A DNA stretch of 64,000 nucleotides from an uncultured Acidimicrobiales bacterium (GTDB taxonomy: Bacteria; Actinomycetota; Acidimicrobiia; Acidimicrobiales; SZUA-35): NCBI GenBank assembly GCA_937922805.1, contig CALAJV010000004.1, positions 62,001 to 126,000 on the forward strand. The letters run 5' to 3'. The position numbers were made by a program, and so were the translations under genes. A model generated the notes under the pieces. That model did not search any database and was not told the DNA's origin. It worked only from the letters and a program-made list of their open reading frames with translations. Of this stretch, positions 27,095 through 60,103 are shown piece after piece; position 1 is the first letter of the stretch; each line of letters begins with the position of its first letter.

Positions 27095-27303
27095 TCGTCG
27101 GTATCTTGTACCCCCTCTGTCCGTGAGCCTGAGAGTCTTGCGATCGGCACAGCCTTTCGCTTACTCCTTCGGCGGTCGACCGGTGTCTTTGTGGCCAACA
27201 CTCTCCAGAGCGGACAAACCGAGACGGTACGGGTACCTGAGAGTTTCCGGGGTGGTTGCTCCTTCGGTGGGCTGGTTGCCCAGCCGCTCTCCCATCTCGC
27301 TAT
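27095..27303 (-). promoter_or_regulatory. Tandem glycine riboswitch
   Basis: On the minus strand two glycine aptamers lie in series before gcvH. Aptamer 1 has GGGAGAG, CCGAAGGAGCAA (CCGAAGGAG at 27259-27267) and AAACTCTCAGG. Aptamer 2 has GGAGAG, CCGAAGGAGTAAGC (27164-27172) and GACTCTCAGGC. These are the conserved cores of the glycine riboswitch class. It probably turns gcvH on when glycine is high. The gcvH Shine-Dalgarno begins about 10 bases after the second aptamer, so control of translation is possible; no separate intrinsic terminator is obvious. Confidence 0.93.
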
Positions 27304-27442
27304 GAGTCCGTAGATTGAGGGTACAACCTGAGCGGCAGATAACGGCCGAGAATGGCTTGGCTACTGCGATTTAGCGCAAAGTGGTCGTTTCTTGAGAAAG
27401 TCTTGACTCGAGTATTTTCCTGTTTTGAACGATGTATTCACT

Positions 27443-55867: not shown

Positions 55868-56608
55868 TTACAGGTTTGGCGACTTAGCGGTCTGATCTAC
55901 TCGTTGGATTGAGACCGAGTCAGCGATGAATCGAGATGACGGAACAAGGAACGTCTCGCCCGACTTGCTGGTCAGTTCGACTGCTGTCGGATGAACAGCA
56001 GCCACCACACCTTCGACGTTGCCGACCTCGACGGTGTCTCCGAGCTGAACAATCCTCTTGAGTACCCGCGTCGACGCCACTTCTCGAGCAACTCCGTTGC
56101 CTCCGAGCCCGACAAGAAGAGTAAGGCTGGCTGCCACTCCGAAGAACACAGCCCCTAAGGCCATATTGACGATTTCGGTGTCGACTCCCAGTTGGCTAAC
56201 CGCTAGGACGACGGCGAGCACCATTATCGTGCTTCGCACAACCAAGCTGGCCTGCCGTTGTACCTGGAGAGGCATCCGGCCAGTGGCCTGGGCCAGCGCT
56301 GTGGTGGCGAACGAAGCCAAGACGTTGGCGACGATCAAGATAAGCCCGGCGCTGAGGAGTTTCGGAATCCACGACACGAGATCTTTCGGAAGCTGCTCCA
56401 AAGAAGATGGCTGCAAGATGCCAAGAGCGATGACCAAACCCGCTATTAGACCTATCGACAAAGCCAAGCTGGCCAGCGGTTTTGCTACTTGTTGTAGCGG
56501 TGCTGGTCGCTTCGGAGAACCAATGAAACCATGAACTAAGCGCGACGCTACTAGGCCAACGAAGAGTCCACCAACGATGGCGATCACCACCAGGAGCCAA
56601 TCACTCAT
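55868..56608 (-). CDS. MscS-family mechanosensitive channel
   Basis: A small-conductance mechanosensitive channel subunit that opens on hypo-osmotic shock in relatives. Four hydrophobic helices are visible, the last with MALGAVFFGVAASLTLLVGLGGNGVAREV as the pore helix, followed by a beta domain with LGDTVEVGNVEGVVAAVHPTAVEL and VPSSRFI. The 246-residue length is compact. The start is ATG 56608, behind GAGGG; the frame upstream is not homologous. It is downstream of an ECF sigma/anti-sigma pair on the same strand. Confidence 0.85.
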   Translation of the reverse strand: MSDWLLVVIAIVGGLFVGLVASRLVHGFIGSPKRPAPLQQVAKPLASLALSIGLIAGLVIALGILQPSSLEQLPKDLVSWIPKLLSAGLILIVANVLASFATTALAQATGRMPLQVQRQASLVVRSTIMVLAVVLAVSQLGVDTEIVNMALGAVFFGVAASLTLLVGLGGNGVAREVASTRVLKRIVQLGDTVEVGNVEGVVAAVHPTAVELTSKSGETFLVPSSRFIADSVSIQRVDQTAKSPNL

Positions 56609-56831
56609 ATTGTTTCCCTCTCTGCTTGCATGTCGCCCACACAAACTACACTTCGTCGACGGGCTTCGCCGGTAGCGACAATTGTCACCCTATCGTCTGC
56701 TTGGCGATGGTTGCTCGGTGTCGTTCGTTTGATCCCAATTTGTTGCCGCTGTGCTTCCACGGTTTTGCGCTGTTGTTTACGCTGGCTTGTTCGAATATCA
56801 ATGACGGTTCGGCGCTGTCTTGTCGATGCTT

Positions 56832-57161
56832 CTACTCTGCTGGCTCATCGATTAGGAGGATTTTGCCTGTTTCGATTCCGGCGCCGAATAAGTCAGTTAC
56901 AACGTCAAATACTGCTCGTGAATCAAGTCGAGCTGCAACCTTGCGCTCGAGCCGGTCAGAAAGATCAGCGGGAGCGGTGAATACTGCTGCTAGCGCATCG
57001 CCGATAGCCAACGTGCCGGTATCGGCATCATCGATTGTTTCAAGGACGCCGGCACAACGCTGGCACGATCCTAGATGGGCGTCCAACTCGGCTCCGTGCT
57101 CGCCAGCGAGCCACTCTCGAAGCGCCTTTTTACTTGGGTGCCGTAAGACCATCATGCCCAT
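56832..57161 (-). CDS. Zinc-finger anti-sigma factor
   Basis: A 109-residue soluble protein that probably holds the ECF sigma factor inactive. The zinc-anti-sigma motif is visible as HGAELDAHLGSCQRCAGV (His-x3-Cys-x2-Cys). No membrane helix is seen, so it would be a cytosolic ZAS protein. It overlaps the sigma gene by 10 nt from the ATG at 57161, or by ATGA from the in-frame ATG at 57155; the second is a classic coupling. The signal sensed is unknown. Confidence 0.78.
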   Translation of the reverse strand: MGMMVLRHPSKKALREWLAGEHGAELDAHLGSCQRCAGVLETIDDADTGTLAIGDALAAVFTAPADLSDRLERKVAARLDSRAVFDVVTDLFGAGIETGKILLIDEPAE

Positions 57162-57757
57162 TCCCGCAATGCTGAACCTAGCCGCCGCCTTGAACGCAAC
57201 AGTCGTGTTTTTACTGTTGGCATTGGCACGTCGAGAATTTCCGCTATCTCGTCGTAGGCCAAGCCTTCAACTTCTCTGAGTACAACAATGCTCCGAGAAA
57301 GATCGTCAAGCAAGTCAAGAGCTTTGACGAAATCATCCATGACGGCGTCTGACTGGACTCTTGACTCTACTGATCGCTCAGGTCGAGTTTCTGCTTCTGG
57401 AAGATCGATCGGGTCGATAACAACTGCTTTTCGGGAACGCAGCGTTGATATGGCAGTGTTGTGAGCGATTCGTAGAACCCAGCTGCGTAGCGAAGACTCG
57501 CCTCGGAAGTTCGGCAAGGCCAGCCACGCCTTGACTAGAGTCTCTTGGGCAATATCTTCTGCCAATGATTTTTCCCGGACGACCGACATTGCCAGTCGGT
57601 AGATAGCTTCGCCGTGCTCCACAACTAACTTATGGAGCTCCTCGGGATCAGTCTCTTTATCTACGATGGCTCGAGTCGGCTGTTCAGTATCATTGAGTTT
57701 TGAATCAGTCGGCCGCGCTTGAGGAGTTCCATTTATATAGGAACTCGAAGTAGCCAT
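57152..57757 (-). CDS. ECF-family RNA polymerase sigma factor
   Basis: Alternative sigma factor. Seen: region 2 with HGEAIYRLAMSVVREKSLAEDIAQETLVKAWLALPNFRGESSLRSWVLRIAHNTA (residues about 60-115) and region 4 with LDDLSRSIVVLREVEGLAYDEIAEILDVPMPTVKTRLLRSRRRL. The ATG at 57757 is used, but ATG 57790 and GTG 57805 are also open and no start has a clear Shine-Dalgarno. An MscS gene lies downstream on the same strand and a second channel-like gene diverges upstream, which suggests control of an envelope or osmotic response. Confidence 0.9.
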   Translation of the reverse strand: MATSSSYINGTPQARPTDSKLNDTEQPTRAIVDKETDPEELHKLVVEHGEAIYRLAMSVVREKSLAEDIAQETLVKAWLALPNFRGESSLRSWVLRIAHNTAISTLRSRKAVVIDPIDLPEAETRPERSVESRVQSDAVMDDFVKALDLLDDLSRSIVVLREVEGLAYDEIAEILDVPMPTVKTRLLRSRRRLGSALREWA

Positions 57758-58077
57758 TCGTAGTCGCGGGAAGAATCGAAAGATTCTCATAGGAAAGATC
57801 CGCACATAGTCATGACGCTCAAAATGGTAGACGCGTCGCGAGGAATGTGGCCAAAAAGTCTCAGTATTGCTCGTTTGGGTCGCTCAGTTGGCTTAAACAG
57901 TGGAACTTAACGGCGGAAGAAAATTTCGATCTAAGTAGTTGAAGTTTGGATGAGCTAGTTCTGGGTTCGACAAAACATAACTTCTTAGGAGTTTCTCGGA
58001 AAAAGTCGAGAATTTCGCGACCGAATGCCGACTTAAACGTCAATCAATTGCTTACGACTTATAAGGGAGTTAATCAA
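57758..58077. other. Divergent regulatory gap between sigma and membrane-helix genes
   Basis: These 320 bases hold the starts of two opposite transcripts. On the plus strand GGAACTT at 57901-57907 is followed about 18 bases on by CGATCT, which would fit an ECF-type promoter (GGAAC...CGTC-like) ahead of the membrane-helix gene. On the minus side the alternative upstream starts of the sigma gene fall at 57790 and 57805. The promoter call is weak. Confidence 0.35.
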
Positions 58078-58815
58078 ATGCTCGCACAGGTTGATGATGG
58101 TCTCGACCTCATCTCTTCACTACAAACCGGTATCACCGATTTGTTCTCGTCACTCTTCAGCTTTCTGCCGAAGCTTGTCGGGTTTCTACTCATACTGCTC
58201 ATTGGCATGTTTGTCGCCAAGCTCATCGGACGTGTTATCCGGCGAGTCTTCAAGGCAATCAACCTTGACCACTACCTAGACAAGGCCGGCATCGGCGGTC
58301 CGCTCGAACGAGCTGGCTACGCTGACAGCGGCAAGTTTGTTGCCAAGATCATTTACTACATGATCATGCTGATCGTGTTGAAGCTTGCCTTCGGCGCCCT
58401 CGGTATCGACGCTCTCAACGAGCCGTTCGACAAACTAATTGCGTGGATTCCGCAACTTCTCGTTGCACTTATCCTCCTCGTCGTCGGTGGCATTGTTGCC
58501 AACGTAGTTTCAGATCTGGTTCGTGGCGCTACTGCTACCCAGAGCTGGGGCAACATGGCAGTGACCGCCGCCAAGGTTGGCGTCTGGTGGATCTTCGGCA
58601 TGGCAGCACTTGACCAAGCCGGAATCGCTACCGACCTCGTCGACACCCTCATGACAACCGTCTTCGCCAGCTTGGGTGCAATCCTCATCATCAAGTACGG
58701 CGTCGGTGGCATCTGGGCCGCACGTGACCGCTTCTGGCCAAACGTGTACGACACCGTTTCTTCTTCAACTGCTAGCAAGACCCCGGCGCCTGCGCCTCGT
58801 CCACCACAGCAGTAG
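58078..58815 (+). CDS. Membrane protein with conserved TM-helix repeats, mechanosensitive-channel-like
   Basis: A 245-residue protein with four hydrophobic segments arranged as two repeats of the TM-helix family that occurs beside MscS domains: LVGFLLILLIGMFVAKLIGRVIRRVF and IPQLLVALILLVVGGIVANVVSDLVRG. The MscS beta domain is absent, so it may be a channel accessory rather than a channel. The tail is Pro/Ala-rich. The start is ATG 58078 behind AGGGAG; the frame open to 57946 is unlikely to be used. A six-hairpin array begins 15 bases after its stop. Confidence 0.75.
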   Translation: MLAQVDDGLDLISSLQTGITDLFSSLFSFLPKLVGFLLILLIGMFVAKLIGRVIRRVFKAINLDHYLDKAGIGGPLERAGYADSGKFVAKIIYYMIMLIVLKLAFGALGIDALNEPFDKLIAWIPQLLVALILLVVGGIVANVVSDLVRGATATQSWGNMAVTAAKVGVWWIFGMAALDQAGIATDLVDTLMTTVFASLGAILIIKYGVGGIWAARDRFWPNVYDTVSSSTASKTPAPAPRPPQQ

Positions 58816-58830
58816 TCGAAACAAGATGTA

Positions 58831-59060
58831 CCGGCAGCTTCCTCGGGCGACGGAAGCTGCCGGAACGATCTCTTGGGAGTTGCACCCTCAGCTCTCCTAA
58901 GAACACTGGATTTGGAGGGGTCCCTCACCCCTCCAAATCCGATCAAGATCACTTGTAATGGTCCCTCACCATCACAAGCTGAAGTCTTGGGTGGGGCCCT
59001 CAGCCACCCAAGACACTAGGAACGGACCCGGGTGGGCGACTCGGGTTCGTTTCACTTTTT
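58831..59060. repeat. Six-hairpin array with conserved apical loops
   Basis: Six hairpins in a row. HP1 58831-58863, 12 bp, loop TCGGGCGAC. HP2 58871-58902, 9 bp with one wobble, loop containing CACCCTCAG. HP3 58908-58940, 13 bp, loop TCCCTCA. HP4 58952-58978, 10 bp with one mismatch, loop TCCCTCA. HP5 58984-59014, 11 bp, loop GGCCCTCAG. HP6 59021-59051, 10 bp with one wobble, loop GGTGGGCGACT. Stem sequences are unrelated, yet the four inner loops share CCCTCA and the outer two share GGGCGAC. The array fills the gap between two convergent genes. Confidence 0.9.
59021..59060 (+). terminator. Likely intrinsic terminator at the end of the hairpin array
   Basis: HP6 of the array (AACGGACCCG paired with CGGGTTCGTT) is followed by TCAC and then TTTTT at 59056-59060. 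This would end plus-strand transcripts from the membrane-helix gene after all six hairpins. It therefore suggests that the array is transcribed as a 3' UTR. Confidence 0.6.
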
Positions 59061-59083
59061 GCCGTCAGGTTTGAGATTCGACG

Positions 59084-60103
59084 TCAGGCAATCAAGTTGA
59101 GGGCGTCGACAGCCTCTGAGAAGTCGAACAAATTGTCGAGCCGGTCTAGCAAGACCCCATCAGCTGAAACTATGAACAGCGAAGGCTCGAACTCAAGACC
59201 GAGATCGACTACCGCTGGTGCTAGCTCAATGGCTGGGTCGGCGTAGTTACCGTTTACTTCACTGGTATTGGCGTATACCTCGACGTGAACGATCGCTGGT
59301 TTCGTCGCCAAAGAGGATTGGGCCTCAATCAACGTCTCAAGGACCGGGCCGCAATACGCAGTCGAGCACAGCGCCGGGGTGGCTACCAACAAGGCAAAGG
59401 GTTTTCGACCAACGAGGAGATCAGCCGCCGAGGTCGAATGAAACGAACACTGGTCAACTCGTGTGCACAACGTGTCGACCCCAGTTGGGTCAGACACGGT
59501 GGGGGTGCGAACCGAAGGAAACGGGTCACCGGTCAGGAGAACTCTGGCTTCGGCCGGATCGAAAATCTGGATTGGCATCGTTGCCTCGGCCGCCTGAAAG
59601 CCTTCTTGGTTGAACGTCGCAACCAAATCGTAGATACCAGGCTCATCGACCTCGACTCGCAACGGGTAGTAGCGAAATAGGTTGGCGTGTTGATGGTCTG
59701 GGTCGATTGTTTCGTCTACGTGATCGTGCGTGACAACTCGGCCAATAGTGGTTGTACTCGCAACCACTTGTCCGTCGCGCAGCAACCGAACCGGAACTTC
59801 AGCTCCGTCGGGGCCGAAGATAACGTCAAGTTCGGTGTCAGAACCGGTACTCGCCGTCGGAGCTACAGTCGCAAACGGAATCCGCTGTGGGCGTCCCGAG
59901 ACCAAGATGTGATCGGGCGAAAACAACGGAACCAGTGTTGGGGCCGAAACGGTTCGCGAAGAACACGCAGAAACGATGGCGCTGGCTGCGGTGATACTCC
60001 CGCCAGCTACCCACGGAGTGAGCGTCGTCGCCGACAAGCCAGATAAGAAGCGTCGACGCGAAAGCCTTGGGCCGGCCTCTGGCCGGTAATTCTTGTTGGC
60101 CAC
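59084..60103 (-). CDS. Tat-type lipoprotein with thioredoxin-like domain
   Basis: A 339-residue exported protein. The N-terminus has a twin-arginine motif (LSRRRFLSG) and a lipobox (AIVSAC, Cys near residue 47). A beta-rich domain follows (RIPFATVAPTAS, LRVEVDEPGIYDLVATFN). Residues about 240-335 look thioredoxin-like, with LVATPALCSTAYCGPVLETLIEAQ and FIVSADGVLLDRLDNLF. The C-x4-C spacing recalls SCO-type copper carriers. Folding before export fits a metal or cofactor. Start GTG 60103, divergent from the molybdenum-type fusion, 49 bp away. Confidence 0.75.
   Translation of the reverse strand: MANKNYRPEAGPRLSRRRFLSGLSATTLTPWVAGGSITAASAIVSACSSRTVSAPTLVPLFSPDHILVSGRPQRIPFATVAPTASTGSDTELDVIFGPDGAEVPVRLLRDGQVVASTTTIGRVVTHDHVDETIDPDHQHANLFRYYPLRVEVDEPGIYDLVATFNQEGFQAAEATMPIQIFDPAEARVLLTGDPFPSVRTPTVSDPTGVDTLCTRVDQCSFHSTSAADLLVGRKPFALLVATPALCSTAYCGPVLETLIEAQSSLATKPAIVHVEVYANTSEVNGNYADPAIELAPAVVDLGLEFEPSLFIVSADGVLLDRLDNLFDFSEAVDALNLIA

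Follow-up and report, generated by a model that had tools for sequence, protein, structure and literature searches.

A conserved hairpin array with two loop classes downstream of an MscS/CmpX-like gene in uncultured Acidimicrobiales

Why should the gap between two convergent genes be filled by six hairpins whose stems are unrelated while their loops recur? The question was raised by a window of 64,000 nucleotides of genomic DNA from an uncultured bacterium of the Acidimicrobiales, and it concerns a class, the Acidimicrobiia, whose small RNAs are, to our knowledge, hardly known. The hairpins follow a gene for an MscS/CmpX-like membrane protein, hereafter the host gene.

The hairpin array and its gene neighbourhood

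Folding located the six hairpins that the initial annotation had described between the convergent genes, and they occupy positions 58827–59053 of the window (Table 1). The plus-strand fold of the array region amounted to -144.4 kcal/mol (z = -8.9 against dinucleotide shuffles, 0 of 200 shuffles being as stable), and the minus-strand fold to -131.2 kcal/mol (z = -5.4 against the same kind of null). The loops form two classes, with CCCTCA inside and GGGCGAC outside, just as had been claimed: class A reads GGGCGAC (units 1 and 6) and class B reads NCCCUCA (units 2–5), resulting in the order ABBBBA. A 7-nt loop, NCCCUCA, can be assigned to each of units 2–5, although in units 3 and 4 the folding program adds pairing that reduces the loop to CCCUC. 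The stems differ between units and bear no relation to each other. Furthermore, a terminator scan recovered the T-run noted 3' of hairpin 6, and hairpin and T-run together represent a terminator-like site on the plus strand. The array is a single locus in its own genome, where none of the remaining occurrences of GGNCCCTCANCC lies within a hairpin.

Table 1 Features of the array locus, in window coordinates
Feature	Position	Strand	Basis
Small cysteine-containing protein, probable anti-sigma factor (weak)	56832..57161	-	Position after sigma gene; NCBIfam antisigma E=0.008, below cut-off
ECF sigma factor gene, divergent from host gene	57152..57805	-	Pfam Sigma70_r2/r4_2; NCBIfam sigma70-ECF superfamily above cut-off
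ECF-type promoter of sigma gene, TCGCGAC-N17-CGTC	57814..57841	-	Motif search; relatives
ECF-type promoter of host gene, TCGCGAC-N16-CGTC	58015..58041	+	Motif search; relatives
Host gene, MscS/CmpX-like membrane protein	58078..58815	+	Pfam MS_channel_1st_1
Hairpin 1, class A, loop TCGGGCGAC	58827..58867	+	
Hairpin 2, class B, loop ACCCUCA	58871..58902	+	
Hairpin 3, class B, loop UCCCUCA	58908..58940	+	
Hairpin 4, class B, loop UCCCUCA	58952..58978	+	
Hairpin 5, class B, loop GCCCUCA, 5' half of conserved BA module	58984..59014	+	
Hairpin 6, class A, loop TGGGCGA, 3' half of BA module and terminator stem	59019..59053	+	Folding, terminator scan
U-rich tail ACTTTTTG, completes intrinsic terminator	59054..59061	+	Terminator scan

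The host gene lies divergent to an ECF sigma factor gene, and 47 of the 62 loci have an orthologue of this sigma gene in the vicinity of the MscS-like gene; this sigma-factor context was absent from the initial annotation. The small protein encoded after the sigma gene gave no Pfam match. It is followed on the minus strand by a second MscS-like gene (ATG at 56608), whose leader (56600–56650, minus strand) reads TGTGGGCGACATGCAAGCAGAGAGGGAAACAATATG and contains GGGCGAC as well as a Shine–Dalgarno sequence, GAGGGA, complementary to UCCCUC loops. As a target of the array this Shine–Dalgarno sequence was rejected, the variant not being kept in relatives. The longest open reading frame of the host gene begins at TTG 57946, upstream of its own ECF-type promoter; conservation favours ATG 58078, which is likely the true start. 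Upstream of the host gene, the promoter motif CGCGAC-N16/17-CGTC was present as an exact match in all 23 loci checked (among shuffled upstream sequences, 2.5–16% hold a one-mismatch match), and a second copy directed at the sigma gene was seen in about 18 of the 23. Genome-wide, the motif yielded 11 matches against 11 for the reversed control, and since it is thus not enriched, the regulon cannot be outlined. The convergent gene (59084–60103) was without a Pfam or NCBIfam match. Elsewhere in the window, a tandem glycine riboswitch with two RF00504 aptamers is located on the minus strand (27107–27304).

Conservation, distribution and strand

Of the 41 genomes searched, 25 contain an orthologue of the host gene, and the 62 named host-gene loci belong nearly all to metagenome-assembled genomes of uncultured Acidimicrobiales or Acidimicrobiia. 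Downstream of the orthologous gene at these 62 loci, we collected 124 strong hairpins chosen without regard to loop sequence. GGGCGA proved to be the top loop 6-mer (29 of 124; shuffled mean 0.6, maximum 4) and CCCTC occurred in 30 (shuffled mean 3.0, maximum 10), while the reverse complement TCGCCC was seen in none of the 124. In this genus, and also in a large part of the family, a pair of hairpins, class B before class A (BA module), comes after the host gene. In an alignment of BA modules from 15 genomes, both CCCTCA (CCCUCA) and GGGCGA were invariant, and two-sided compensatory changes were found in 18 of the 22 stem pairs. Paired cells made up 88.4% of this alignment versus 75.9% in shuffles, and the signal was lost when partners were slid. 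A class-A-only alignment, in which two stem registers are mixed, likewise covaried. Selection on both loop sequence and structure, as postulated in the initial annotation, is thus borne out by invariant loops, covarying stems and loop motifs far above shuffles. The outcomes that would have refuted the initial annotation did not occur: sister genomes carry related arrays whose stems covary and whose loops are kept. The hairpin array is a real, conserved RNA element.

The BA covariance model, R1, matches the window at 58981–59053 with 76.2 bits and detected the module in 25 of the 39 genomes of this Acidimicrobiales family. Under stricter filters it gave 0 matches outside the family among 347 genomes of the order (15 of them from the family) and 296 genomes of the phylum. 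At the array position, a plain hairpin of the UUCG type occurs in several relatives from outside the family. Unit number varies while the loops stay fixed, the order being BA in most of the genus and ABA, ABBBA or a longer mixed array in sister genera. There, the class-B loops read ACUCCCUCC or UUCCCUCC, and the class-A loop remains GGGCGAY. On a tree of the host protein the array was clustered, with 8 changes (losses or gains) versus 18.5 in shuffles; among the rows scored as lacking class A, some do carry it with longer loops. Two loci (L134 and L141) show a changed gene order, with the sigma gene downstream of the MscS-like gene and a lone class-A hairpin directly behind the latter.

In most genomes the array is single-copy. 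Extra BA copies were found in three genomes (G007, G009 and G017), and two of the copies flank a monooxygenase gene. Two of the genomes have their additional copies on either side of a flavin monooxygenase gene as well as at other places, and the third has one close to lysS. In two sister genomes, at L083 (5669–7600) and L085 (3850–5800), the flavin monooxygenase gene is preceded by a BA module and followed by a B hairpin with a terminator. At L086 (3950–4030), a BA module is situated between lysS and a TetR-type gene, away from MscS-like genes, and may possibly represent a free-standing small RNA. An exact ECF promoter was not found before the extra BA copies of the three genomes. Class-A hairpins elsewhere in 14 genomes were dismissed, since the few off-locus matches had E>0.1 and were chance-like.

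The composition of the stems bears on the strand. Under a scoring that did not favour G-T, stem oppositions of G-T outnumbered those of A-C by 58 to 20 (p = 2e-5, an approximate value as the sequences are related). This excess of G-U pairs over A-C mismatches indicates that the plus-strand RNA is under selection. Moreover, many genomes without a convergent gene in the flank retain the array together with the MscS-like and sigma genes. From G-U bias, promoter, terminator and gene linkage we infer that the array is transcribed, most likely as the 3' UTR of an ECF-controlled plus-strand transcript. It is almost certainly a conserved structured RNA of the plus strand that is tied to the ECF/MscS transcript. 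A structured plus-strand 3' UTR closed by a terminator had indeed been suggested in the initial annotation, and promoter, T-run, G-U bias and gene linkage agree with it. The Shine–Dalgarno-like loops that were read there on the minus strand are disfavoured, since all four of these lines of evidence speak for the plus strand.

Possible roles of the two loop classes

On the plus strand the class-B loops read CCCUCA and resemble an anti-Shine–Dalgarno sequence. In LhrC and other Gram-positive small RNAs, UCCC loops bind Shine–Dalgarno regions (PMC4132741). An unpaired UCCC or CU-rich seed is present in the array as well, namely UCCCUC in units 3 and 4 and CUCCCUCC in sister genera; units 2 and 5 carry ACCCUC and GCCCUC instead. 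We lean slightly towards a stress-induced, sigma-controlled transcript that would combine the channel with a 3'-UTR RNA whose C-rich loops are antisense to Shine–Dalgarno sites; the Shine–Dalgarno-directed mechanism of the class-B loops itself we consider an even call. Envelope or osmotic stress would cause the ECF sigma factor to activate its own operon and the divergent MscS/CmpX-like gene. The tail of the host mRNA would fold into independent hairpins and end at the last class-A hairpin and its U-run. Class-B loops (NCCCUCA in the window, ACUCCCUCC in sister genera) would mimic the anti-Shine–Dalgarno sequence and, either within the mRNA or as a released small RNA, could act in parallel as antisense seeds, keeping ribosomes off the target mRNAs. 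That loops are fixed while unit number varies is as expected of repeated seeds. Class-A hairpins (GGGCGAY) close and often open the array and form the terminator stem, and they probably offer a protein or RNase a further site of recognition.

In a pairing test on the window, pairing of class-B loops 2–4 was stronger at translation-start regions than in coding sequence (p 0.003–0.012) and the sister-genus loop preferred start regions even more (p 1e-4), in a rough comparison that is biased because start choice is itself guided by Shine–Dalgarno matches. In the same test, neither loop 5 (GGCCCUCAG) nor the class-A loops exhibited a start-region preference. For the GGGCGAY loop, which is invariant and G-rich, no antisense logic was found. 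Kissing of A loops (GGG) with B loops (CCC) was rejected, inspection having yielded 3–4 possible pairs and no covariation.

Fixed loops on variable stems with changing copy number are also a mark of CsrA-type sponges, and the two loop classes might bind one or two RNA-binding proteins, which would be titrated or would act in cis on the host mRNA. The lack of an obvious antisense use for GGGCGAY and the BA copies standing free beside unrelated genes fit such a sponge or protein-docked 3' UTR. However, no known loop consensus matches, the plus-strand loops hold no CsrA-type GGA, a single B and a single A, as in most genomes of the genus, provide few titration sites, and C-rich loops are the usual seed of small RNAs. 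We consider protein docking unlikely, and the sponge for a translational regulator, as initially put forward, is a possible but less economical explanation compared with C-rich-loop antisense RNA. Lower still is the likelihood that the hairpins mark only a transcript end, where stable stems would terminate transcription, separate the convergent genes and shield the mRNA 3' end from exonucleases. Neither termination nor protection would call for CCCUCA and GGGCGA loops that never vary, or for a fixed B-then-A order, and the array exists also without a convergent gene, even though the gap between convergent genes, the terminator with its T-run, the closure by a last class-A hairpin across the family and the plain UUCG-type hairpin at the same place in several relatives outside the family all suit such an element. 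A DNA-level element, that is, dispersed REP-like palindromic repeats or single-stranded hairpins recognised by a transposase or recombinase, appears highly improbable: the extra copies in three genomes, two of them flanking the monooxygenase gene, are opposed by a single locus in nearly all genomes, unrelated unit stems, a family-wide tie to one gene and an excess of G-T over A-C that would be meaningless in duplex DNA.

The Shine–Dalgarno-directed reading could be extended to a new family of RNAs that use a two-part code of loops: C-rich antisense loops would act together with invariant GGGCGAY loops, to which a dedicated protein or RNase would be recruited, in variable unit number on the ECF-controlled channel mRNA. 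This extension is tentative and its correctness doubtful; if true, one sigma factor would make a channel and silence other mRNAs via a tunable number of seeds.

Comparison with known RNAs and systems

The initial annotation knew of no described element of this kind, and our Rfam searches with the array region and its relatives are in line with that statement: no family matched, and only sub-threshold noise was returned (snoRNA models, SorY, ar14). CcsR and cuckoo RNAs share a C-rich motif, CCUCCUCCC, and RNase E releases them from a precursor. CcsR1–4 are tandem small RNAs in the 3' UTR of a small protein gene, with alternative sigma factors and an intrinsic terminator (PMC10253847, PMC8625941). 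Like these RNAs (CIN1 locus; Rhodobacter and other alphaproteobacteria), the array consists of 3'-UTR hairpins with C-rich loops under an alternative-sigma promoter, which is putative here. Nevertheless, the CcsR host gene is the DUF1127 gene ccaF1 whereas an MS_channel_1st_1 gene takes this position in our locus, the sigma factors are RpoHI/HII rather than of the ECF type, and CcsR has no counterpart of the GGGCGAY hairpin class.

LhrC of Listeria, which is induced by envelope stress, resembles the array in its repeated UCCC-containing loops, which pair with the Shine–Dalgarno region (PMC4132741). In contrast to the actinobacterial array in the 3' UTR of a protein gene, LhrC RNAs are encoded by free-standing, LisRK-controlled genes of Firmicutes, and Rfam showed no match to this family, whether at gathering score in the window or, for the array region, up to E=5. 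The actinobacterial 6C RNA (RF01066), likewise with two hairpins and C-rich loops, acts through these loops and binds several mRNAs, at least as outlined in PMC9569102. Its model matched 0 of the 39 family genomes at E<=0.01, and the Corynebacterium glutamicum control responded below cut-off. Both 6C loops have runs of about six C, whereas the array loops are CCCUCA or CUCCCUCC and GGGCGAY, so that every BA pair includes a hairpin whose loop is G-rich; host context and promoter differ as well. A CsrA/RsmA sponge was rejected since GGA (ANGGA) is absent from the plus-strand loops of the window array, and a REP or palindromic repeat since many dispersed copies with similar stems would be expected and the genome has one locus. 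In sum, the array is distinct from 6C (no RF01066 match), CcsR (host not DUF1127), LhrC (no Rfam match), CsrA sponges (no GGA) and REP elements (single locus).

We know of no conserved hairpin array described behind cmpX. In Pseudomonas, the ECF sigma factor gene sigX adjoins this MscS-like gene, which SigX controls in envelope homeostasis (PMC7641640). The array locus resembles the SigX–cmpX pair in having an ECF sigma gene beside an MscS-like gene. On our best reading, the array would work like the C-loop small RNA arrays, and would be new in its host gene, its type of promoter, its lineage and its second class of loop. No actinobacterial sigma-controlled 3'-UTR small RNA array comparable to the alphaproteobacterial CcsR locus is known to us. 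If the reading is correct, the same design of a stress sigma factor, a protein gene and tandem C-loop RNAs in its 3' UTR would have evolved independently, and the invariant GGGCGAY loop would add a new component whose binding partner is directly searchable.
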